Program-made: the position numbers and the translations under genes
Source of the DNA: Henricia sp. BOLD:AAB3569
Lineage: Eukaryota > Echinodermata > Asteroidea > Spinulosida > Echinasteridae
Assembly: GCA_037783545.1 (NCBI GenBank)
Contig: JBBELK010000525.1
Location: 682,001-746,000 of the forward strand
Direction: 5' to 3'
Length of the DNA: 64,000 nt
Notes under the pieces: model-generated
The model's database searches: none
What the model was told of the DNA's origin: nothing
Seen by the model: only the letters and a program-made list of their open reading frames with translations
Shown: one piece after another, positions 2,515-53,634 of the stretch
Layout: each line of letters starts with the position of its first letter
How positions within the stretch are numbered: position 1 is the first letter of the stretch

Positions 2515-3716
2515 TTAATACCAGCGAAGTGAGCAAAGCATACATTTATTCCCATTCATCAATACCTTTTATAAGTTGGCAAAAATCCTCAAATTTTGCA
2601 ACAATGAACTTCAGCGTTTGGCCATTTTGTGTACAGTTTGCCTGTCCATATGGGTCTTTGTCTGCCGCAATTTCTGCGTATTACCACATAAAATTGTTTT
2701 CTTAGGGGGATTCAAACTTTGCCTTTTTGCGCGTAATTACGACGCGCATCGCTATAAGAAAAAGCGGTGTACAGGGAATTTGGAATGAAATTACTGGCTG
2801 AAAAACACAATCACAAAACACTGTCCGACCAAGTTGACATTCGGTGATTTTCAGTGCCTCATTTCAATCATATGAAAACGCTCAGTGTGAATCCACTCAC
2901 TGTATACATTCATTTGCGTGATGTGTGTATGCGAACGCAACAAGTGAACCTGCTAGTATTAAATCCACCTTGATAAAGAGGCCACCTGTTTATAGTGGCC
3001 ACTCATCTTTGGTCTCAAATGCCATGTGTATATTGCTTAAGCAACCTCTATAAAGAGGCCACCTGTTTATAGTGGCCAGGTTTTTTTTACAGTCCCGGGG
3101 GTGGCCACTATATACAAGTTTCACAATGGTACTTCATGGGGCTATTTCTAAAACTAAACGTTATGACTTCGGCCAAATAAAAAAAATTGTCTGAAATTGG
3201 ATTCCAAAATTTGATATCCCAGACCTTCAAAAACACAAGAGCTGAGCTCTTACGGAAACACGCACGAGGCCTTGTGTTTGGATATAACAAAAAGATTGGA
3301 ATGCGTCGGGCTGGTGGAGTATTGAGCTTGTGGAAGTGCGATATTGATCCTCGCCATGGGTTACCACGGACCAATCAGAGCATAGACACCTGTTGCATGG
3401 CATACCACACAAGCCCTGGATGTAATCATGCCATTGTCTATCTAGTCATATGTGGGATTGATGCACAAACTGGGCCCATACAACCAGGTTCATATACTGC
3501 TTGTACACGAATGGTATCTCATGCTGTACATGGGATTTTTTTTCCCCGTTCTAACTTGTTTGTGGGAAACCATATGTTTGGTTCAGTATGCACATTTTAA
3601 CATGTGCAAGTCTAAAGTGCATACCATATGTAAAATGTTAATGAAATGGTTACATTTATTTGAAAGAATTTTTAATTTAGAATAAATCTTGTGTGAATTA
3701 ATCTCCATTATAATGT
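2515..3716. other. intergenic/intronic stretch with a short direct repeat
   Basis: No exon is supported here. A block reading AGAGGCCACCTGTTTATAGT is present twice, near 2977 and 3055. The longest open frame (3187-3600) has no family features and ordinary repeat-like composition. Confidence 0.5.
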
Positions 3717-3964
3717 GGGTCTTTCCACAGTAAAGGGGGCATGATTTTGGCAACACCGTACACGGACCATATTTTCGAAGAAATACCTTTGTCTGGTCTC
3801 AAAATAAAAGAAATAAGTTTAAGTTGTTCTGAAGATATAACTTAGGCCCAAAAAGGGTTTCAAATAGTGTGACAACATGCCTTTCTAAAAACCCTGTGTA
3901 CAAATTTCCAATATAACGCTCGTAACCATGACAACCTAAAATGTAACACAAGTGTCCGTCCCGA
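3717..3964. mobile_element. half copy of the GGGTC foldback MITE
   Basis: This starts GGGTCTTTCCACAGTAAAGG and follows the element at 5847 base by base, with small differences, up to the central GTGTCCGTCCCG. The sequence then becomes unrelated, so the right arm is missing. It is a one-armed remnant. Confidence 0.75.
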
Positions 3965-4897
3965 GGGGTGACTGACTATATTGACAAATCCTAAACTGCA
4001 TGGGTTGCCAGTTCTTGTCAAATAATCAAATCTGGTTCATTAATCTGGGTGCGATTTTTGAATTTGCTGCACCAAAACTGACATAACTTTTGATTCGCTT
4101 GACTGATTTTGATGCAATAAAGACTATTTTTCATGAAAGAAGATTCCCTGTGGACCACCAAATTTATTTTCAGCAGGACCAGCAACCTGAGGACCAGTAG
4201 AGTTCTCTAATCTACTGGTCCTTCTGACCAGCATGAAATTCAAGTTAATTTCGACCCCTGCTAGTTTAAAGAAAAATGTGAGAATATTTATTGGAAAAAA
4301 AGTTTAAATACATTTCACACTTTTTATAAAATTGACATTGCTTGTTGCAGAGTCAATTTATGGGCATAATTTCATGCCAAACCCACTTCAGAATTCAACT
4401 GGAATTAGCCATTAACCCACACTTAAAAACGTACATAAATCTACTTTCGTAATACCTCCTTTTATTAGCATTTGAATTATCCTAACCCTCACTGTGTTAA
4501 AAAACAAATCTGTAATTACACTCCAATCTAAGCACCCGATGAAAAATGGCATTGTACAGACATAATAGCCGTTTTTAATAAATATATTGATTAATTCTTC
4601 CGGTTTTTCAATCAATACATGCAACAAGTTATTGACATTTCAGATTGGGGAAACCTTTGTGGTTTGTTTTGTTCTGTTTTTTTAATAACCATAACCAATG
4701 TTTCATCCTGACTGAGATATTTGGACAAATTTAGTTTTAAGCTTTGTTAGAGGGTGACATTAAAATACCTGATTAATTCATGAGAACTGAGCAGGCTAGC
4801 TGATGACTCACTCTTTCCGTCAACAAAATGAAATTCCCAAAGAAGCAACATTTTTGTCATAAGGGTATGGTACATGTACAAAGAGGAAAAAGTTTAA

Positions 4898-5445
4898 AGG
4901 GCCATGATTAGGGATTTTTATTAAGGAAATTTAATATGCTATGAAACTGTTCTACTCAGTTACAGTCATAAAAATCCTATTTGGAGCTTGTTTTGGGGGT
5001 TAAAACAAAGGTGTTTTAGCTTTTATGCTAATGTAATATGCATATTCATGAGCAATGTTGTGATGTCACGAGAGGCAAACACAGGAAAATCACGTTCAGC
5101 TGTGCACAAAAGATTCCACTTTTTTTTCTCTAACTTGCTGAAACTTGTTTGTGTTACATGTTTCTTGTTGTACGCAATGACAAAACTGGGGGTGGAAACT
5201 TGCCACAAATTTGCCACAATTCCAGCTTGAAGTCTTATGTTTTTTCTTTACTTTTCCCTTGTGTCTTCCTAAAGTGACATGCCCCAAACAGCGCCCTCTT
5301 TATGTGATTTACTGCAATGAAATCTTCAAAGTTAAAAAGGCTACCTGATTTTACATCAAAACGAACAATAGTAATATCTTGCTAAACAAGTAATCCATCA
5401 TATGCAGCAAAGACTAGACATAGTTGTTTAGCATGTCATGGCCCT
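4898..5445. mobile_element. TTAA-flanked non-autonomous element, AGGGCCATGA ends
   Basis: The ends AGGGCCATGA and TCATGGCCCT are inverse to one another and are flanked by TTAA on both sides (4894-4897 and 5446-5449). The 548-bp interior is AT-rich and lacks any convincing open frame. Classed by its target duplication; no autonomous partner is visible. Confidence 0.7.
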
Positions 5446-5458
5446 TTAAGGGTTTTAA

Positions 5459-5784
5459 AGGAGCGTGATCACCTCTTATTTTTCCTATGGGTATTGAGAT
5501 TTTGATACCGTATCTTCATTTGTCATATGTTTCTCATTGCCTGGCTGAAATTTCATGCTGACTCCCAGTCTGTATATTTTCAAGGATATCGTCAAAAAAC
5601 CACCAACGTTTTGTAAACTAATTTATCCAGGTCCACAAAGCAGTGCAGTGATTAAACCAACTTTTTTGCTTGGAAATAAAAAATTTCCGGTTTTCTTCCC
5701 ATGTATAGTGTTTTGGGGAGGTATTTTATATCACTGTCTAGTTAGAACGAAATCCATTTTCTTGAAAAATCTGGACAAGCTCTA
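5459..5784. mobile_element. AGGAGCGTG-family TTAA element
   Basis: This begins after TTAA with AGGAGCGTGATCACC and carries the family's core words: GGATATCGTCAAAAAACC, AGCAGTGCAGTGATTA and CGAAATCCATTTTCTTG. The right end (GGACAAGCTCTAAG) is decayed. Other copies lie at 12962, 17614, 18645, 26424/30860, 43176 and 55153, making it one of the commonest repeats in the window. Confidence 0.75.
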
Positions 5785-5846
5785 AGCTTCATACAATGAA
5801 GGTACGCCAACCTAACATTTTCTTTAACAATTTCTGCTCCACAGTT

Positions 5847-6280
5847 GGGTCTTTCCACAGTAAAGGGGGAATTTTGGCAACAGACCATATTTTCGAGGAA
5901 ATATCTTCGTCTGCTCTCAAAATAAAAGAAAAAAGTTTCAGTTGTTCTGAAGAGGTAACTTAGGCCCAATAAGGGTTACATATTGTGCGACAACATGCCT
6001 TTTTAAAAACCTTGTGTACAAATTTCCAATATAACGCTCGTAACCGGGACGGCCTAAAATGTAACAAGTGTCCGTCCCGGTTACGCACGTTATATTGGAC
6101 ATTTGTACACAGGATTTTTAAAAAGGCATGTTGTTGAACTTTTTGTATACCCTTTTTGGGCCTAAGTTATCTCTCCAGAACAACTGAAACTTATTTCTTT
6201 TATTTTGAGACCAGACAAAGGTATTTTTTGGAAAACATGGTTTGTGTTGCCAAAATGCCCCCTTTACCGTGGAAAGACTC
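5847..6280. mobile_element. 434-bp foldback MITE, GGGTC ends, 4-bp TSD
   Basis: Nearly the whole element is one inverted repeat. The left arm starts GGGTCTTTCCACAG and the right arm ends GTGGAAAGACTC; the centre reads GTGTCCGTCCCGGTTACG. AGTT is duplicated on the flanks (5843-5846 and 6281-6284). The arms explain two similar open frames on opposite strands, which are not genes. It is the intact relative of the half copy at 3717. Confidence 0.85.
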
Positions 6281-6284
6281 AGTT

Positions 6285-7469
6285 CCATATGTTGAACCTA
6301 GAATTAGAAATAAATATGGCCTGTATTCCCATAATGCGATTTCTGAAACACTCCTTCAAATGAGTGTGATAGTGCAAAAAATTATTAACAGGTTTGCTCG
6401 AAAAGTGCTTTGATGGCGATATCGGACTTTGTGGAATTAAATTAAATGCCTTGTATACACTTATCATGCGGACATCTGTGCTAGAATGGTCCGTTTCCCA
6501 TGATTATCACTATTGTTTGTGCATTAAGTAAACTTTTACAATTGCAGAATGCACGCACTTTCTACCACACACTTTTTGCTGCACTGTCAGCAGAAAATGT
6601 GCGTTTTTTTGCTTTGCGTGTTTGAATGTGGTGACGCAGGCATGTATGCAAAGTTTTGTTTTTAACCAGCTCTTGACCAAAATGTGTGTTAGGCTAGCTT
6701 GGTTGTATCTTTGTGTTGTAGGACTTCGGGTTTGAGTTGGATAAAGCCATCCTGAGATCTTAGGGAATTTCCACTCTGCAAAGCGACGTAACAATACCCT
6801 GAGGAAATACACGCACATTTGTGGTGTGAGCCGGCTGTTGTCTTGAGCCAACTCACGCCCCAGTCATTTTGATGTAATTAAATAAAATTAGTCATGTTTT
6901 GGTCAAAATTCCAAATATCTATATTTTCTAGAAATTTGTTTGAGTTTTTGTTCTTTGTCACGTTAATCATATCGATAATTCCTGCAACATTTGTGTCTAC
7001 TACGCATTTTTTAAACAAAATTAATCAGAGGGATGCGGAACGAGTAACGTAATGTCCTGTTCAATAGAAATAGCGACCAATCGGCGAGCGCGTTAGATCG
7101 GACATGGACCGTGTTTACAAACTGCGTGCACGTGTAGCACTGGTAACAAGGTCGATCGTGGAAACACCGAACGCCACATATAACAAGCCTCATGATTGGT
7201 CTAGAGAGGCGACAAGATTTCTGTCGCTAGTCCCACCGCCAAATGGGGCCTTTTTCAACAGGGCCACTGTACGCAGGAGTGAGGGAGTGCGTTAAAGGGG
7301 CACTGTTGCAAGAGGATGGATAAAGCAGGCATCTTCATGTGTAGCAATGGGATTCTGTCGCAAACTGACTGTTAAATTTAAGAATTAGAGCCCCTTTTCT
7401 GTAACATAATTATCCAATAATTTAAAACCATTTCAGGCCAGTCTGCTCAGTGAACGAGTGGATCTATGT
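6285..7469. other. no gene or clear repeat recognised
   Basis: A 1.2-kb stretch with mixed composition. Short open frames exist on both strands but lack splice signals or protein-family features. A GC-richer patch near 7020-7300 has no recognisable content. Confidence 0.4.
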
Positions 7470-20632: not shown

Positions 20633-21261
20633 AGGGGATTACACCCAAGAAACATTGTGCTGAACCGAAGTGTAACTCCTACATTATTTTTATACAAAGA
20701 ACAAGGAATTTGACCTGCTAAAAATCGAACACGAACTTCACAAAGAATGGCTATGGGCGCCGCCATTTTGTCCGGAAACTGGGCAAAGAATGATATTTTC
20801 GCGGATAACTTCGTGTACTCCGTTTGCTCTGGAGTGGACTTGTTGGGATCCTGAGATAATTTATCGCAGCATGACGACATAACATTATTCAGTGCGAAAT
20901 GTCGCCGCATTTGTCCAACATTCTGGATGTCGTCTTCCTGAGATAATTATCACGGGATGACGACATTTTGCACTGAATATGTCGTCATCCTGCAATAAAT
21001 TACATTGTGTATTTCAGGATCTCAACAAGTCGGATAGCACTTACAGAGCTCCGTGGTACCGCAAACGGAGTACACGAAGGAGTTGTCCGCGAAAACGTCA
21101 TTCTTTGCCCAGTTTCCGGACAAAATGGCGACGCCCATAAGCCACTTTTTGTGAAGTTTGTATCCGATTTTCAGCGAGTCAAATTCCTTGTTCTTTGTAT
21201 ATAACAAAATAATGTACAATGTTCAGTACAATGTCTTTTGTTTCCTGGGTGTAATTTCCCT
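20633..21261. mobile_element. 629-bp foldback element, AGGGGATTACACCC ends
   Basis: Long arms: the left arm contains GAACAAGGAATTTGAC, TTTTGTCCGGAAACTGGGC and GTGTACTCCGTTTGC, all repeated in inverse in the right arm. The centre repeats GATGACGACAT and ATTCAGTGC words. TTAA lies on both sides. The two arm open frames are mirror images and not genes. Confidence 0.8.
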
Positions 21262-24571: not shown

Positions 24572-25240
24572 ACTGTGCCTCATAGCTCAGCTGGTGGAGC
24601 ATCTGCCTGGTTTGTCTGACGTCTTGGGGGGGGGCGGGCTTGAGGGAGTAGGCCCTACACCACTGTACCTCATAGCTCTGCTGGTAATGCATCTGTCCAG
24701 GCTGCCAGAGGTCTTGGGGGGAACCCGAGGGAGTATACCACTGTGCCTCATAGCTCAGCTGGTAGAGCATCTGCCCAGTGTGTCAGAGGTCATGGGGGGA
24801 ATCTGAGGGAGAATACCATGTGCCACTGTGCCTAGCTCTGCTGGTATAGCATCTGCCTGCTGTGTCAGAGATCTTGGGAAAACCTGAGGGAGTAAATATA
24901 CCATTGTCACAGTGCCTCATAGCTCAGCTGGTAGAGCATCTGCCTATAGTGTGTCAGAGATCTTGGGGAAACCTAAGGGAGTAATATACCACTGTGTCTC
25001 ATAGCTCAACTGGTAGAGCATCTGCCTGGTGTGTCAGAGATCTTGGGAAAACCCGAGGGAGTAAATATACCACTGTGTCTTATAGATCAGCTGGTAGTAG
25101 AGCATCTGCCTGGTGTCAGAGTTCTTTTGAAAACCCGAGGGAGTAAATTTATTTTATACCACTGTGCCTCATAGCTCAGCTGGTAGAGCATCTAGTGAGC
25201 CCGTCTCTGGTTCAAATCCGATGATGCCCGTATGATTTTT
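24572..25240 (+). repeat. tandem array of tRNA A-box units
   Basis: Eight imperfect units of 78-90 bp, with CATAGCTC-like anchors at 24581, 24671, 24749, 24831, 24918, 25000, 25081 and 25170. Each holds CATAGCTCAGCTGGTAGAGC, then TGTGTCAGAGATCTTGG, then AACCCGAGGGAGTA. Only the last unit continues into a B-box-like GGTTCAAATCCG followed by CCCGTATGATTTTTT. So the 5' half of a tRNA-derived SINE was amplified in tandem. A single relative lies near 48540-48660. Confidence 0.85.
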
Positions 25241-26423: not shown

Positions 26424-28594
26424 AGGAGGGTGTTCAGGTTTTTCCAGAAATTGGATTTCGTTCTAACCTAACATTCAAATCCATAAGAAGAAAACAGGAA
26501 AATTGCAAATCTCCAATTTGGATGTGGAAGAAAAAAGATTGGTGTAGCCTACAGTCACTGCACTGCATGTTCTGGAAAAATTAGTTTACTTAACATCTAG
26601 TCGGGTATCTATGGGGGACCCCCCGTGCACCCCCCCCCCCAGTACTAAACCAAACCAACTTTTTTAGGTGCATTTTATGGTCCTAAAACACATTTTTGAT
26701 GTTAACAGTAAAAAAAAACCGATGCACTCGGGTTATTCAAAATGGCGGCCAAAATGGCGGCCAAAATGGTCAAAAATCATATATTGGCCAAATAATATGA
26801 TGAAAGCACTTAAAAAACGGCTAGTTATATGTTTTTTACCCTCGCAAATTTATTTCTGGGGTCCCCTTTTTTCTATCAGGCCAATATGGCTGCTAAAAGT
26901 GGCCAACTGTGAGCAAAATGATATATAATGGACAAAAATAATGATAAACACATACATAACAAAGGTTATATTTTTTTGACCCTCGCAAATTTATTTCTGG
27001 GGTTCCCCTTTTTTCTATCATGCTTCAAATTCAAAATGGCGGCCAATATGGAGGCCAATATGGCTGCCAAAATTTGCCAAATATGAGAAAAATGATATAT
27101 AATGGACAAAAATAATAATCAACACATAACAAAAGTTGCACGTTTTTGACCCTCGCAAATTTATTTCTGGGGTCCCCTATTTTACTATCATGCTTCAAGT
27201 TAAATATGGCGGCCAATATGGCGGCCAACATGGCGGCCAATATGAAGAAAAAAAAGATATATAATGGACAAAAAATAATGATAAACACATACATGTACAT
27301 TAAAGGCAACCACCCAGAACTAACCCACACCAACTTATTGGGGAGCTCTTTGTGATATATAGCATATTTTGCATGTTAACAATACAATACAATGAAATGC
27401 TCTGGAGATATCTAAAATGGCGGCCAATATGGCCACTAAAAATGGTCCAAAATGAAAAAGATCATACATGTATATTAGCCAATAATGACAATCATTTATA
27501 AAATTGCTAGTTATGTTTCTTACCCTCGCAAATTTTATTTTTAGGATTTTCTACCATGCTCCAAATTAAAAATGGCTGCCAAAAGTGGCCATTATATGAG
27601 GAGAATGATATATAATGGGCCAAAAATAACCCACAGCTTGAAGATGGCGATCACTGTAGCTGCCAAGAGTGGCTAAATATGAGAAAAAATGACACATAAT
27701 AAAGAGAAAAATTAAAAAAACTGTTGCACCTTCAAGAACTAACGCACACCAACTTTTGGGGTGCCTTTTGATGTCACAAAAACATGTTAATTAAAAAATG
27801 GTCTGGCGATATCCAAGATGGTGGCCAATATGGTCACCAAACATTTTCAAAAATAGAAAAGGTCATATATTTATAGCAAAATAATGATTTAAATGATTAG
27901 TTATATATATTTTTACTCACAAATTTTTATCTGGTGTACGTGCTACTTTGCTACCACGCTTTAAATTCAAGACAGCGATCAATATGGCTGTCAAGTGTAG
28001 CTGAATGTAAGAAAAATGATATCTAATCGGCCAAAAACAAATTATAAAACATAAATTAAATGATGTTGTTCACCCTTATCAGTTGTCATCTTGGTATTCT
28101 TATCATGTTTGAAGTTAAATGAGGCTGGTATGACCACCAAAATGGCTTTTCAGGTCTACAAAAAATTATAAATATCCTAAGTATTTTTTTCCATGATCAC
28201 AACAAATATGATCTAAGAGACACAGATATGGGATAATGAGACAATGGGGTGTTTGTTGTTCGTGAAGAGGGAGTCTAAAGTGGAAAAGAATGATTCCAGA
28301 AAAATCAACGGTATTGAAGTGGGCATAATTATTGGGGTACACAAAATGTGAACAACTCAATACAATTCGAATTTGGATGTGCTTATAGAGCAGTTTAATC
28401 GTACACTCCTCAACATGATAGAAACCAGCAAGCAACATGCAGAAGGATTAGGATGGGCAGTTGTCCTATGCGATATTTCCATACAGATGCATCCCTTGGG
28501 TCTACATGTACTGGAGACACACCTATCCAATATGCCAATGCTACAGTGAGGGAAGTTTCAGTTTCACTGGATCTCTTAGTGGAGGATCCCTTAA

Positions 28595-29333
28595 AGGCCC
28601 AGTGTATCATTTGCAACGACCTCAAAAAGTAATCGACGAGTTTACAGGGGAAAAGTTCTGAAAGTAAAGATTGAATTAATAGCAACTACCCAATGAAAGG
28701 TTTCCGCTCAAAATGATATAATTTTACCAGAAAATAATCCGTAAAGATGAAATTATTTAGATCGTTTGCAAACGATTTACTTATTTTTGGTTCGCATCTG
28801 GGTCTTTCTATAAATTAGGGGTCCAGTGTTGGTGTCCCCCGTTCATTTTACATCTTGTTTTTGTAAATTCAGGACACATTCTTTAAATACTTTCCATCTC
28901 AAAGAGTGAGTACATAAAGTACAATTCATACAAAATGGTTTAAAAGCCATTTTAATGATTTTTGTACGAAAAATAACACATATCAGGTGTAACGGGGGAC
29001 ACCAAATGTCACACTTTTGGACCCCTAATTTATAGAAACACCCATCTACGCGGTCCAAAATGCATGGGCACTGTGTACTGCGTTGATCCAACGCGATGCA
29101 GTATATGATGTGCGCCACAGAGTGCATGACGCAAGCCACATAGTACCCGATCAACTGAGAACAAATATTTGAAACACCCCACCAAGACCAGGAAAACGCA
29201 TATGGATTTTCATGTTTTTTTTAAACGTGTGACAAAGCTGAAATTTCTTGGGATGAGTTTGTTGATGGCTTTCTTTTGATTTATAATGGTTTTATTCGCA
29301 GAATCGCTCAAAAACAGATCATCTGCAGGGCCT
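28595..29333. mobile_element. TTAA element inside the giant foldback (filled-site copy)
   Basis: Inverse homologue of 8145-8666, flanked by TTAA (28591-28594 and 29334-29337). It contains the MITE at 28800-29043; without that and its 4-bp duplication the length is about 491 bp. It occupies the central spacer of the giant foldback. Confidence 0.85.
28800..29043. mobile_element. 244-bp MITE with exact ATCT duplication
   Basis: Ends GGGTCTTTCTATAAATTAGG and CCTAATTTATAGAAACACCC are near-perfect inverses. ATCT stands at 28796-28799 and 29044-29047, while the uninterrupted homologue at about 8464 has a single AGAT (inverse orientation). Same subfamily as 11725-11978. An overlapping minus-strand frame is not a gene. 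Confidence 0.9.
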
Positions 29334-31024
29334 TTAAGCGAGCAAGGGAAAACGCACTAGCCCAGCCAGCACAGTAGACATTTTTCTCATTTGGCCTCTT
29401 TTGGCAGCCATGCTGATCGCATATTATGGAATTTGAAGTAAAAAAGGATAGCATAAAGATGATTGTTGAGGGTAGAAAACATACCAGTAACTAACCATTT
29501 TATTAATTTTTATTGCATCATATGGGTGATATGATTTGTCAGCCATATTGGCCGGCATCTTGGATATCTCAAGGGCCGCAGGGCTTTTCTCAGTTAAAAT
29601 CCAAATAGTTTTCGTGGATCAACGCACCCAAAGGTTGTTATTGGGGTGTGTGTGTGGGGGGAGGGGGGTGGGGGTGGTGGTCATTGAATTCATTTATTTA
29701 ACATATTTTGGCAGCCATATATTGGTTGTATAATAAATGAGGGTCAAGAACATATGAATAGCAATTTAGAAATGCTAATTATTCGCCTTATGATATGCTT
29801 TTAATTTTAGACCATTTTTGGCGGCCATATTGGCCACCATCTTTGTCTCCAGAAGATTTTATTTTAATAATGTTAACATCTAAAACTGTTTCAGAACTCT
29901 AAAAGGCATCATAAAAAGTTGGTGAGGTTAGTTTAGCGGAAGGGGGTTGCATTTAATTTATGCATTATTTTTTTGTCATTGTATATCATTTTTCTTACAT
30001 TTGGCCACTGTTGGCAGCCATATTGGTCGCCAATTTTGAATTTAGAGCATGATGTATTATAGAAAAATAGGGGATGCCAGAACAAAATTTAAAACGGTCA
30101 AAAGCACATAACTAGCAATTTTATAAATGATTTTATCATATTATATTTGGCTAATATATGATCTTTTCCATTTGGGACATATTAGCGGCCATACTGGCCG
30201 CCATCTTGGTCATCTCCAGAGCATTTTATTTTCTTGTTAGCATCCCATATGCTTCAGGATCATAAAAGACACCCTAAAAGGTTGTAAGTTAATTCTGGGG
30301 ATTGCATTTAATGTACATGTATTTTTTTGTCCATTATACATGTATATCATTTTTCTCATATTGGCCACTTTTGGTAGCCATATTGGCCGCCATTTTGAAT
30401 TTGAAGCATGATAGAAAAAAGGGGACCCCAGAAATGAATTTGCGAGGGTCAAAAACATATAACTTTTGTTATGTATGTGTTTATCATTATTTTTGTCCAT
30501 TATATATCATTTTGCTCACAGTTGGCCACTTTTGGCAGCCATATTGGCCTCCATATTGGCCGCCATTTTAAATTTGAAACATGATAGAAAAAAAGGGACC
30601 CCAGAAATAAATTTGCGAGGGTAAAAAACATATAACTAGCCATTTTTTAAGTGCTTTCATCGTATTATTTGGCCAATATATGATTTTTGACCATTTTGGC
30701 CGCCATTTTGGCCGCCATTTTGAATAACCCGAGTGCATCGGTTTTTTTTTACTGTTAACATCAAAAATGTGTTTTAGGACCATAAAATGCACCTAAAAAA
30801 CTTGGTTTGGTTTAGTACTGGGGGGGGTGCACGGGGGGTCCCCCATAGATACCCGACTAATCGGTGGCTTTCTTTTTATGATATCCTTTGGAAATATACG
30901 GATTGAGAGCACGACATTTCAGAATGGTAATGAGAAAAATATGACAAATGATATATCAAAATCTCATGGCCATGGGGTAAGTGAGGGATCAAAAAAGAAA
31001 TGGTCACGCTCTTTATAGCAGCGC

Positions 31025-31536
31025 CAGGGTTGTAATGACTTGGACTCGAGTCGACTCGAGTCCCGATTTTCACTGCAGACTTGACTTGACTTGAGACTCG
31101 AACCTCAAATGACTTGACTTGACTCGGACTCGTACATTTTTTGACTTGGGTCTGCCAAAAATAAAATTTAACTTTTTGTCATTTTGCATGAGGACCGAAC
31201 TGTGTTTCAGCACCAAGCTTTCTTTTAACATGGAGCATTCTTAGCCATATAGCAACAAAAATACTCCACACGAATGCAAGTTTTGCGTTTTGACTCATTT
31301 TGAAATTAGCCTGAAAAAAAGTATTGTTGTGACTACTCGACTTGAACCGACTTGACCAACATGCCTGACTTGACTTAACTTGGGACTCGAAGTTTGACTT
31401 GACTTGACTTGGGAGTCGAAGTTTGACTTGACTTGACTTGGGAGTCGAAGTTTGACTTGACTTGACTTGGGAGTCGAAGTCAGTTTGACTCTACTTGACT
31501 TGGAACTCGAGCAGAGGGAGACTCGTTACAACCCTG
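31025..31536. mobile_element. hAT-like MITE with 8-bp TSD and internal minisatellite
   Basis: Ends CAGGGTTGTAA and TTACAACCCTG; AGCAGCGC is duplicated exactly at 31017-31024 and 31537-31544. An 8-bp duplication with CAGGG ends fits the hAT superfamily. Inside are a 20-bp palindrome of GACTCGAGTC units and several 29-bp repeats made of GACTTGACTTGACTTGGGAG plus TCGAAGTTT, near 31370-31485. No transposase. Confidence 0.9.
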
Positions 31537-50125: not shown

Positions 50126-52240
50126 TACGTTTTAAGATTCGAGAATGTAAACCTATTTTCGGTAGACCAATTCTGTAATTTGTTAAGAGACAATTGGAGT
50201 TGACGTTCAATATTTTGCATACGGCTACCTCTTTAGCAAATATAGAAATCATCTACATACAGTTTTAACAATGTTATTAATTTTGATACTGAATAAGAAA
50301 ACAGAAAGGATACTTCCTTGGGGGACACCCATTTATTGTTCATGTGAAGCAGATAGGGTGGACCCTACTTTAACTTTAAAATGTCTGTCAATTTAAAAAT
50401 TTGCAATGAAAATGGGTAGTTCATGAAGGTCTTTCATTATGCCATATTTCCATGTTGTATCGTATGCTTTTTCTAAGTCAAAGAATATTGCAACCGCATG
50501 CTCTTTTTTAATAAAAGCATCTCGGACAAAGGATTATAGTCTTACTAAGTGGTCTGTAGTACTTTCCTGAAGCCACATTGGTAATTATTTATTAGGCCGT
50601 TAGCTTCAAGTACCCAAACAAGTCTATCATTGACCATTCTTTCCATGGTTTTACACAGACAGGAAGTAACTGCTATTGGTCGGTAGTTGGATGGGTTTGT
50701 GTGATCTTTGCCTGGCTTTGGTATAGGAATGATGGTAGCATTTTTCCACGATGGTAGTATGTCACCAGTTTCCCATATGATATTAAGTATGTTCAACAAA
50801 TTATTCAGACATTTCTCGGGTAAATGTTTCAATAATTGATAGTGAATTTGGTCTGGTCCTGTTGCTGTATGTATCATGTGATTTGTTAATAGCAGTGATA
50901 AGTTCTTCAAGTATAAATGGTTGGTTGTAGTTTTCAATATTATTAGAAGCAAAGTTTAGTTGATGTTGTTCGTTCTGTAATTTGATTCTTTGACATTTTT
51001 TTGAGTAGTTTTCTGTAGATGAATTTTCTTCGAATGTTTTTGCTAGTTCCTCTGCTATATCTGTCTTAGTAGTAAGGGTTTCATTATCTTTTTTTAAATG
51101 TTTAACTCCCGGTTTGATCTTTTGACCTTTCATTTTCTGGACCATATTCCAGACTTTACTCAAAGGAGTACGTGAGGTAAGTTTAGACACATATGTTTTC
51201 CAGCTGTTTCTTCTTTTGTGGTTAATAATTTGACGGGCTTTAGCTCTAGTAATTTTAACTTGAGCTAAATTATCTGGTGTTGGCCTGTGATTAAATTTCC
51301 GTTCAGCTTTTTTGCGAGCTTTTCTGGCTTCCTTGCATTCTTGGTCATCCCATGGTAGATGTGGTTGAGATGACCGAGCCGATGTCTTGGGTATTATAGT
51401 ATCATCGGCTATATAGAAATCAAAATGCTGGTATAAGTCTTAATAGGGTCAGCTTCATTGTCGAAGTTTATATTTGTTAATTTTTCATCACAGTGCTTAG
51501 AAAAAGTTTCCCAGTCTGCTTTGTTAAAGTTCCATTTGGGAGTGTATTCTTCAGAGAGTGATTGGTCGTATTCTAGGATGATTGGGAAATGATCGCTTCC
51601 ACATAGGTCATCCCAGACTTCCCATGAGAAGTCTGATACAAGGTCAGGGTCCGTAAGTGTGAGGTCTAATGACGTATAAGAGCCACAACCGGGATGTAGG
51701 TAGGTATGTGATCCATTGTTTAAATAACACAGTGCTTGGTCAGTGATACATTTTTCGAGCAGTCTTCCTTTTGTGTTATATGTATCAGAACCCCAAACAG
51801 GGTGGTGTCCATTAAAATCTCCTATATGGAGTTGGGAGTTGGTTAACAAGGTTATCTAGATCAGTATATGTTTTAAGTTGAAGGTTGGTGGTATATAAAT
51901 GGAACATAAGGTGATTGCTCTATGCAAAGTAATGCGGGCTGCAACAGCCTGCAGATTGGTATTTAGAGTTACATGGCTATGAATAATGCCTTGTTTAACT
52001 AGTAACGAAGAACCTCCTTTGGCTCGTTGTTTATCAGGGTCATAGGTATTATACATATGATATGATTTCAGGTTGATGTTATCAGTTTCTTGTAAGTGGG
52101 TTTCTTGAAGTGCAAACACAGCTGGGTTGTGTGTTTGCACTAAAAGTTTAATTTCGTTAAAGTTGGCTTTAAAACCTCTATACAATTCCACTGAACAATT
52201 TTGGTTTTATTAATTTACGTTGTGGGTCAAGTGTGCTGGT
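50126..52240 (-). pseudogene. non-LTR retrotransposon ORF2 remnant (endonuclease and RT)
   Basis: Pieces in three frames on the minus strand, in order. First, an AP-type endonuclease start (52191-51856: ALQETHLQE, GGSSLLV, CSIYIPP). Next, its end (51849-51409: IGDFNGHHPVWGS, GSDHFPI). Then a linker (51190-50801) and the reverse transcriptase start (50952-50545: ATGPDQIHYQLLK, IPIPKPGKDHTNPSNYRPIA). Further degraded RT words down to about 50130 include FFDLEKAYDTTW, GVPQGSILS and a damaged catalytic VDD region. Frameshifts and stops make it inactive. The RT stops before the thumb: the element's 3' end is lost. In intact relatives the protein nicks target DNA and copies the element's RNA. Jockey/I-like by style; the clade is uncertain. 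Confidence 0.85.
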
Positions 52241-52589
52241 TATGAAAGAGGGTAAGTGTTATTTAATATTAGGTCTGGGAGATCTACTTCTTGTCCTACT
52301 CTTTGAGTTAGTAGTCATTTGCTGTAGTTCCGTATAGTATACGTCCATGTCATCTTCGGTTTCATTATCTAGACTACTGTATTTGTTTTGTAGATTAATT
52401 GGGTTTTTGTTGCCTTTTTTGGTTCGGTTACTGGATTCAGGGTTTATTTTCTTGTTGGAATGTTTTCCTGGTGGTTTTTCTTTGGAGTTACTACTGGTAG
52501 ATGGTTGGTTAGTTGTCTTACTGGTAGTAGGGCGTGTTTTGGTTTGGAAGTTTTCTTGGTCAAGTGGATCGGTCTGACAGCTGGTTGAT

Positions 52590-53634
52590 TTAGTTAGGGG
52601 TCGTTTTGGTTCTGCGATTGGTGACTGTGTAGTTTACTGGCTTTTCAGTTGTGATCCAGGTGAGCTTTGTTTGGCATTTCATATTGCGAGTTTCTTTGGG
52701 TCGTGTTGTTGTTGTTGTTGTTGTTGCTGCTGCTGCTTCTGCTTCTGCTGCTGCTGCTGCTGCATATGTAGGTTTATCAGGGGTGCGAGCTTTAGCCATT
52801 TTCTTTGCTTCTGGATAGCTGATGTTGTTCATGGCTTTCAGATATTGGACTTGTTTTTCCATTTTCCACACAGGACAGTCTCTTGATGAAGCCATATGGT
52901 CACCCTGACAGTTCTTGCATTTTGGGTCTTTTTGACAGTCTTGTCCATTGTGGTCAAGCTCGCAACAGCGGAAGCAACAGGGTCTTCCTCTGCATGCCTG
53001 TAGACCGTGACTAAATTTTTGACATTGGAAACACCTCAGTGGGTTGGGAATATACTTCTCAACTTTTATCCTGAGGTATTCCAGCTTGATGAACTCTGGA
53101 AGTATCGTTGTATCAAAGGTCAGAATATATGTGCCTGTGGCAATGACGTTGTCATTTTTCCTGATGGTTATCCTTTTGACAGTAGTAACACTTTGCGTTG
53201 CTAGATAGTTTAGTATTTCATCCTCTGTTTGGTCGTCTAATTCACGTGTTTTTATAACACCTTTGCTGCTGTTCAACGTTTTGTGTGGTTGGACAATAAC
53301 CGGTATATTGGCCAACTCTTTCATCTTGATGATGTTCTGACTTTGTGTCTCCTCTGCCTGCAGGAGGTTTTCTTAGTTTTTTGACAAATTTTACAATGCC
53401 CACCATGCCCTGAATCGCTTTATCGATAACAAAGGGCGAAAGCTTTGTAATGGGATGGCTGTCATCTGACGAGACTATTTTTAAAAAACCTGTACCAAGT
53501 TTCTTTTGCATTAGTAGAAGATTGTTGCCGAGGATCTGGTTTATCTGGATCTGAATCTGAGTCGGGACGATTTCGTTTGTTTGTGTGGGAGGCCATATTT
53601 GTTTGCATGCTAATTCACCATCTCTGGTCTCCAC
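52590..53634 (-). pseudogene. non-LTR retrotransposon ORF1 (zinc-knuckle protein), frameshifted
   Basis: The N-terminal part (53634 to about 53370; METRDGELACKQIWPP) continues in another frame from about 53370 (KELANIPVIVQPHKTLNSS). Three CCHC-type knuckles follow: CFQCQKFSHGLQAC, CFRCCELDHNGQDC and CKNCQGDHMASSRDC, then a KMEKQVQYLKAMNNISYPEA block typical of ORF1 in Jockey/I-like elements. A GTT/GCT trinucleotide repeat (52707-52763) encodes runs of Ala and Thr near the C-terminus. Such proteins bind the element's RNA. It lies just upstream of the ORF2 remnant in the same direction. Confidence 0.85.

Follow-up and report, generated by a model that had tools for sequence, protein, structure and literature searches.

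A young foldback DNA transposon family in Henricia, most likely of the Academ type, with a plausible driver in the same genome

The locus and its foldback element

The window analysed here is a stretch of 64,000 bp from the sea star Henricia sp. BOLD:AAB3569 (assembly GCA_037783545.1, contig JBBELK010000525.1, C525:682001–746000), and the genome searched with its sequences comprises 740.7 Mb in 2,104 contigs. Within the window, at 26598..30859, is a whole non-autonomous foldback DNA transposon of 4,262 bp, with exact inverse ends, a 3 bp target-site duplication, and copies with the same ends elsewhere in the genome. The element starts with TAGTCGGGTATCTATGGGGGACCCCCC at 26598 and is closed by the inverse of this sequence at 30859, the exact termini being TAGTCGGGTATC...GATACCCGACTA. 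Comparison of the flanks identifies the duplication ATC on both sides, at 26595..26597 to the left and 30860..30862 to the right. The original prediction, made from the sequence of the window, had placed a foldback at 26598..30859, and its coordinates, inverse termini, and duplication are all exact.

The outer inverted repeats, at 26598..26878 (+ strand) and 30579..30859 (− strand), are 97.5% identical over 281 bp. The outermost 40 bp of both arms are 100% complementary and the adjoining 246 nt match at 98%. Over the outer 520–540 bp, including the tips, the left and right arms are 88% identical with gaps, and deeper in the arms about 750 bp match, with an offset, at 75%.

Between the arms, the centre (28148..29378) has no recognised units and no long open reading frame (ORF). 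The block 28595–28796 of the centre is found in 13 of the 24 copies compared (below). There is also a nested insertion at 28798..29044, an inverted-repeat sequence resembling a miniature inverted-repeat transposable element (MITE), with ends CTGGGTCTTTCTATAAATTAGGGG and a close inverse, and with the end CTGGGTCTTTCTATAAATTAGGGGTCC; the insertion at about this position is private to the window copy, being absent from the other 23. No stop-to-stop frame longer than 125 codons is present anywhere in the element, and tblastn against it with the protein of the candidate driver described below (L042) and two relatives of that protein gave no match, in keeping with the earlier statement that the element has no protein. 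A decayed transposase gene in the centre was rejected on the same tblastn result and on the absence of a Pfam match for one reading.

Copies in the genome

When the genome was searched at the DNA level with the left end, there were 393 candidates, of which 40 were scored, and 158 matches. A pattern search allowing up to two mismatches found 102 forward and 106 reverse ends, 208 altogether, against 0 for the reversed control, which would make the window element a member of a young family of about a hundred copies. Perfect 3 bp duplications flank 22 of the 24 two-ended copies compared (the window copy included), and these duplications are of many different triplets, GTC, GAG, AGA, ATG, and GTT among them. 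The genome search and the comparison of the 24 copies together demonstrate that this is a non-autonomous element with many same-ended copies, as had been proposed.

The two copies lacking a perfect duplication are L010 (ATA/TAT) and L030 (CCA/ACA). Outside the set of 24 are the loci with a single intact end (L034, L035, L037, and L039), L032, which has a degenerate second end, and L041, which is two-ended and has the duplication TTA and a large nested insertion. The flanks of L010 (C245:2460586–2465927) are part of a palindrome, TACATA/TATGTA, and are possibly a 2 bp TA duplication. At C133:201816–201859, two family ends stand back to back with a 2-base overlap.

Across the 48 ends of these copies (first 300 bp), the mean identity is 97.94% within elements (n=24) and 97.93% between elements (n=1,104), and the end's own mate is its best or tied match in only 1 of the 48 cases. 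This speaks against homogenisation of the two arms within one copy, and the arms of the window element are therefore alike because the family is young. It had been suggested that the element was either young or homogenised; its youth is supported by the perfect duplications and by the identity of about 98% among the 48 ends, while homogenisation is not supported, the values within and between elements being equal.

Long inverted arms are able to provoke assembly errors, and an inverted join could in this way have made the foldback, a possibility raised with the original prediction. The 24 two-ended copies, however, are at separate loci and have the same structure, 22 of them with their own perfect duplications, which makes an assembly inversion very unlikely.

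Arrays of units in the arms

The arms are trains of about nine to ten diverged units of roughly 100–195 bp each, with borders that were set by hand, and Tandem Repeats Finder reports a period of 170 bp for 26878–27291. On the evidence of nhmmer and the alignment of hand-cut units, the left arm array covers 26734..28147 (+ strand), with unit matches that start at 26734, 26836, 26976, 27146, 27324, 27520, 27641, 27743, 27916, and 28096. The right arm array covers 29379..30726 (− strand), with unit matches that start at 30726, 30624, 30452, 30211, 30101, 29855, 29719, 29564, and 29458. Weaker nhmmer matches are present on the opposite strand at the same places in both arrays because the core of the unit is near-palindromic.

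The alignment contained 18 hand-bordered units and four stretches of L042, and conservation was read from its 60/80% consensus line. On this reading, the most conserved stretch of the units is ATGGC.GCCAATATGGC.GCCAAAA, often then followed by GTGGCCAA, and the remainder is strongly diverged. This core is often present as two or three direct repeats with a spacing of 12–14 bp.

There are seven ATGGCGGC words in the left arm (26742..27424, + strand; starts at 26742, 26754, 27036, 27206, 27218, 27230, and 27417) and five in the right arm (30197..30718, − strand; lower coordinates 30197, 30386, 30559, 30699, and 30711). When the element was scanned against its own shuffled sequence, the richness in these motifs that had been remarked upon was confirmed: AANATGGCGGC is present at 12 sites, where 200 dinucleotide shuffles give a mean of 0.01, and ATGGCNGCC at 19 sites (9 on the + strand and 10 on the − strand), where they give 0.16. 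The arrays are in opposing orientation, as described previously, since the sites in the left arm are all on the + strand and those in the right arm are all on the − strand. Over the 24 copies, ATGGCNGCC faces inward at 269 of the 272 sites in the left halves (3 outward) and at 233 of the 234 in the right halves (1 outward).

It might be supposed that replication slippage and unequal recombination were by themselves enough to lengthen the arms and that the motif is a part of the unit without any role. The 24 copies do range in length from 3,488 to 5,342 bp and in motif number from 7 to 17 per half, and the tandem repeats of the Galileo F arms expand and contract (PMC3573991). The motif core is nevertheless the best conserved part of otherwise strongly diverged units, in both arms and in L042, and three tandem copies of the motif (27206, 27218, and 27230) are inside one unit. 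Growth of this kind, with no role for the motif, is therefore a doubtful explanation of the arrays.

A candidate driver

Among the ends listed (100 of the 208), L041 and L042 stood out as unusually long same-ended pairs and were fetched. L042 (C522:218671–226194) is 7,524 bp long, has the duplication CCA and inverted repeats of 424 bp that are 99% identical, and contains one uninterrupted frame of 1,575 aa counted from the first ATG. An autonomous relative had been envisaged in the original prediction, and L042, with the same tips, a 3 bp duplication, and an intact ORF, is a good candidate.

The ends of L042 and the window element are 75–78% identical over about 440–510 bp. When the left end is taken 40 bp at a time, the tip matches at 40/43, the segments up to position 160 at 33–36/40, and those beyond are mostly lower; the tips differ in the length of the C-run, which is 8 in L042 and at the right end of the window element and 11 at its left end. 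There are three ATGGCNGCC words at each end of L042, in two cores, all of them inward. A motif pair is present at 142 and 154 in L042, and its counterpart in the window element is at 145 and 157 (26742 and 26754).

L041 is a family copy into which a pogo-like element has inserted (3200–6679), and this insertion contains an open frame of 681 codons (DDE_1 and HTH_psq, with PHD below the cut-off). This frame was rejected as the driver because it is inside the separate nested insertion, with the element sequence on either side overlapping by 2 bp.

The C-terminal domain of the L042 protein is modelled as a nuclease of the FEN1/EXO1/XPG type (VIA-align on Foldseek-ranked chains). Pfam finds neither a YY1-type zinc finger nor any other domain in this protein, though C137, C140, H199, and C202 near the N-terminus are conserved, and these Cys/His residues could bind metal. 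D488, D657, and several E are invariant across the three driver-family sequences and are to be regarded as catalytic candidates only. The target duplications of the relatives of the driver protein are AGA and CAT; for the C306 relative (42%), the stretches read did not contain its ends, and no relatives were confirmed in viral contigs. Matches that were not used are, for the whole proteins, PDB 3kl2 (E 1.8) and two weak Pfam hits (E 0.16 and 1.9), with none for the alignment, and, for the nuclease region, a nanobody as the best PDB match (E 1.2) and Pfam DDE_Tnp_1_assoc (E 0.092) on one of the three sequences.

Classification

The window element is a member of a young non-autonomous foldback family, most likely of the Academ type, with a plausible driver in the same genome. 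More specifically, it is proposed to be a gene-less cut-and-paste transposon with an L042-like driver that has a FEN1/XPG-type nuclease and belongs to the AcademX lineage of Academ, a classification to which a probability of roughly 0.7 is assigned. Academ has a Cys8 zinc finger. AcademX generates duplications of 3 or 4 bp and AcademH of 9 or 10 bp, the difference being linked to the encoded nuclease or helicase (PMC10045372). The 3 bp duplications of 22 of the 24 copies and the CCA of L042 are like those of AcademX, as is the presence of a nuclease in the transposon protein, given the modelled FEN1/XPG-type domain at the C-terminus of L042. In contrast to AcademX, the window copy has no gene and takes a foldback form, each arm having about nine or ten motif units, and the likeness to Academ is one of description.

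A 3 bp duplication is also given for Zator, the transposase of which is related to the ISAzo13 family (PMC10045372). The duplications seen here are equally like those of Zator, and since this length is common to Zator and AcademX it is the nuclease, and not the length of the duplication, that separates the two in this case. For the wider PHIS group, duplications from none to 4 bp are given, a range that includes the 3 bp seen here (PMC10045372).

The architecture is that of a foldback element, with long inverted arms that contain tandem repeats in varying number. PIF/Harbinger elements have a TWA duplication, and this class was rejected on the triplets GTC, GAG, AGA, ATG, GTT, and others, which are not TWA. 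Tc1/mariner/pogo was likewise rejected, the duplications being of 3 bp instead of TA, and so was CACTA/EnSpm, which has the ends CACTA/CACTG where the window family has TAGTC...GACTA. Duplications of the P superfamily are 7–8 bp. Galileo of Drosophila, which belongs to that superfamily, resembles the window family in its long inverted arms with tandem repeats of variable number, and these repeats have been proposed as secondary transposase sites (PMC3573991). It differs in that 22 of the 24 copies here have a 3 bp duplication and in that Pfam searches at E up to 10 gave nothing for the L042 protein. Foldback, Tetris, Tm1, and rice Tnr8 are other foldback elements that may be likened to this one by their long inverted arms. 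In the collection of papers searched, none contains both of the whole words "Academ" and "foldback".

Several observations weigh against an Academ-type family driven by an element such as L042. The L042 protein is without a Pfam match at E up to 10, and for this protein and two relatives the PDB and Pfam matches are at chance level only, with none in PHROGs. The nuclease model was built from three sequences and has a mean pLDDT of 63 in the best of five models and of 44–53 in the other four, and the region has no supporting sequence match in the PDB or Pfam searches. For the supposed transposase core, the single-sequence model is unusable (pLDDT 35.5). The motif is absent from the flanks read of the 29% relative, and ATGGCGGC is common elsewhere in the genome, which points to a host factor. 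L042 may also not be the driver that is actually used, because it diverges by 22–25% from the window family over the terminal 440–510 bp.

Proposed mechanism of movement

The conservation of the tips, the polarity of the motif, and the conservation of the core are observed in the proposed Academ-type element. We infer that the L042 protein would be a transposase, that it may act on the ends of the window family, and that the core may be its docking site. An autonomous relative such as L042 would supply the enzyme that moves the gene-less element in trans, and this enzyme would recognise the conserved tip and then cut there. The repeated ATGGCNGCC-type core would be an accessory docking site for the L042-type protein or for a partner protein. 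The gene-less family may have amplified this core until each arm had about nine or ten units, more sites being an advantage in competing for limited enzyme, and the foldback shape would be a by-product of tandem growth at both ends. Taken alone, the docking step, in which the cores are predicted accessory transposase sites, has about even odds.

The YY1 word and a possible host factor

The word AANATGGCGGC, which we take to be the YY1 consensus, as did the original prediction, is present 12,066 times in the genome. This compares with 378 occurrences of AANAGTGCGGC, which has equal composition and CpG number, an excess of about 32-fold, and with 878 of AANATGGCGGC read backwards. The backward control has two CpGs against one in AANATGGCGGC, and AANAGTGCGGC, although only one word, is the fairer of the two controls. 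The extended form AAAATGGCGGCRYCCAT is found 1,131 times against 0, and AANATGGCGGCCAA 1,067 times against 1. Of the places with AANATGGCGGCCAA, 100 of the 1,067 were sorted by eye, using 100 of the 208 ends; 77 are in family copies with a listed end and 23 are not. The window family is estimated to supply about a tenth of the genome's AANATGGCGGC (about 104 copies from the 208 ends, with a mean of 12.1 per copy, against 12,066, copies with decayed ends being outside this estimate), with about nine tenths elsewhere, partly in other repeats.

Five ATGGCGGC-type sites are in the window but outside the element, and at least the site at 20768 is in a repeat of the type present at 20688–21204. The sequence at 20688–21204 is a MITE-like inverted-repeat element, one arm of which has GCCGCCATTTTGTCC and the other a degenerate version of it. 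Genome-wide, this repeat gave 1,789 first-look candidates, of which 40 were scored, and it is probably a large family. Six stretches of C1 containing AANATGGCGGC and selected for paired or arrayed sites were also read, and in four of these (L054, L055, L057, and L058) the word is in opposing pairs. L056 is a short direct repeat and, like L058, resembles the repeat at 20688–21204 of the window. In L053 (C1:42380–43120), units of about 191 bp, each with AAAATGGCGGC, are repeated in tandem, and this array has no blastn match to the window element at E up to 1.

On this evidence, a YY1/Pho-type zinc-finger protein of the host could have putative sites in the arrays, the word having been kept by several transposon families. 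Such a protein might aid the transposons, through transcription, chromatin, or repair, or might mark tolerated DNA, and either variant is compatible with an Academ-type class. In favour of a host factor, the word recurs in different repeats and is in excess within the element and in the genome; four of the six selected stretches of C1 have opposing pairs of the 11-mer, and the repeat at 20688–21204 has it once with a degenerate partner. Human L1 likewise carries a conserved YY1 site, the effect of which is two-sided, serving both transcription and repression (PMC9148063). The window family is like human L1 in being a transposable element with a conserved YY1-type word, although L1 is a retrotransposon and the words here form arrays in the two arms of a DNA transposon, with YY1 binding that is putative. 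In the collection of papers searched, none joins all four of YY1, transposable elements, subterminal, and zinc finger.

The conserved core, ATGGCNGCCAANATGGCNGCCAAAA, is however longer than the YY1 consensus and differently constrained, as it runs past the YY1 word (CCAA on the 3' side) and the base after ATGGC is variable. Strict inward polarity would be expected for transposase ends and is unneeded for a host factor, and enrichment of a word inside repeats is explicable by copying alone, there being one matched control word. A transposase site is favoured by the fixed place of the motif in the ends of L042 and by the longer core. Because of this core, and because the ends of L042 have it almost equally far from the tip, docking of a transposase explains the arrays at least as well as YY1 does, and the host factor is a tentative alternative, rather less probable than docking.

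The original prediction is therefore upheld here in part. The YY1 word is enriched as it claimed, but the core is not constrained as that consensus is. The suggestion that the element spreads clusters of zinc-finger sites is right in that the spreading of the words is real, but the window family is estimated to account for only about one AANATGGCGGC in ten genome-wide. A broader idea, held slightly more tentatively than the host factor itself, is that the roughly 30-fold over-representation of the YY1 word might reflect the convergent capture of a single host zinc-finger protein by independent transposon families, the Academ-type foldback included, each of which would have gathered the word subterminally in opposing positions, with the mobilome as its main source.

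Other features of the window

A tandem array at 24572–25193 has an 82 bp unit with GCTCAGCTGGTAGAGC that appears tRNA-like by eye, and ARAGORN called no tRNA in the window. At 31366–31510 there is a tandem array of TGACTTGACTTGACTTGGGAGTCGAAGTT with a 29 bp unit. The region 51001–53000 has a strong strand bias, with a GC skew to +0.24 and an AT skew to −0.39, and by eye is perhaps the remnant of a reverse-strand retroelement.

Implications

A gene-less foldback is here tied to a plausible driver that has an intact gene in the same genome. Through this link, it becomes directly testable whether a nuclease-bearing Academ-type protein docks on repeated subterminal sites. The YY1 idea would, if true, be the most interesting part. 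A clean question is raised, whether the repeated core is a transposase site or a host YY1 site, in a genome where the word is in strong excess, at least partly in repeats.

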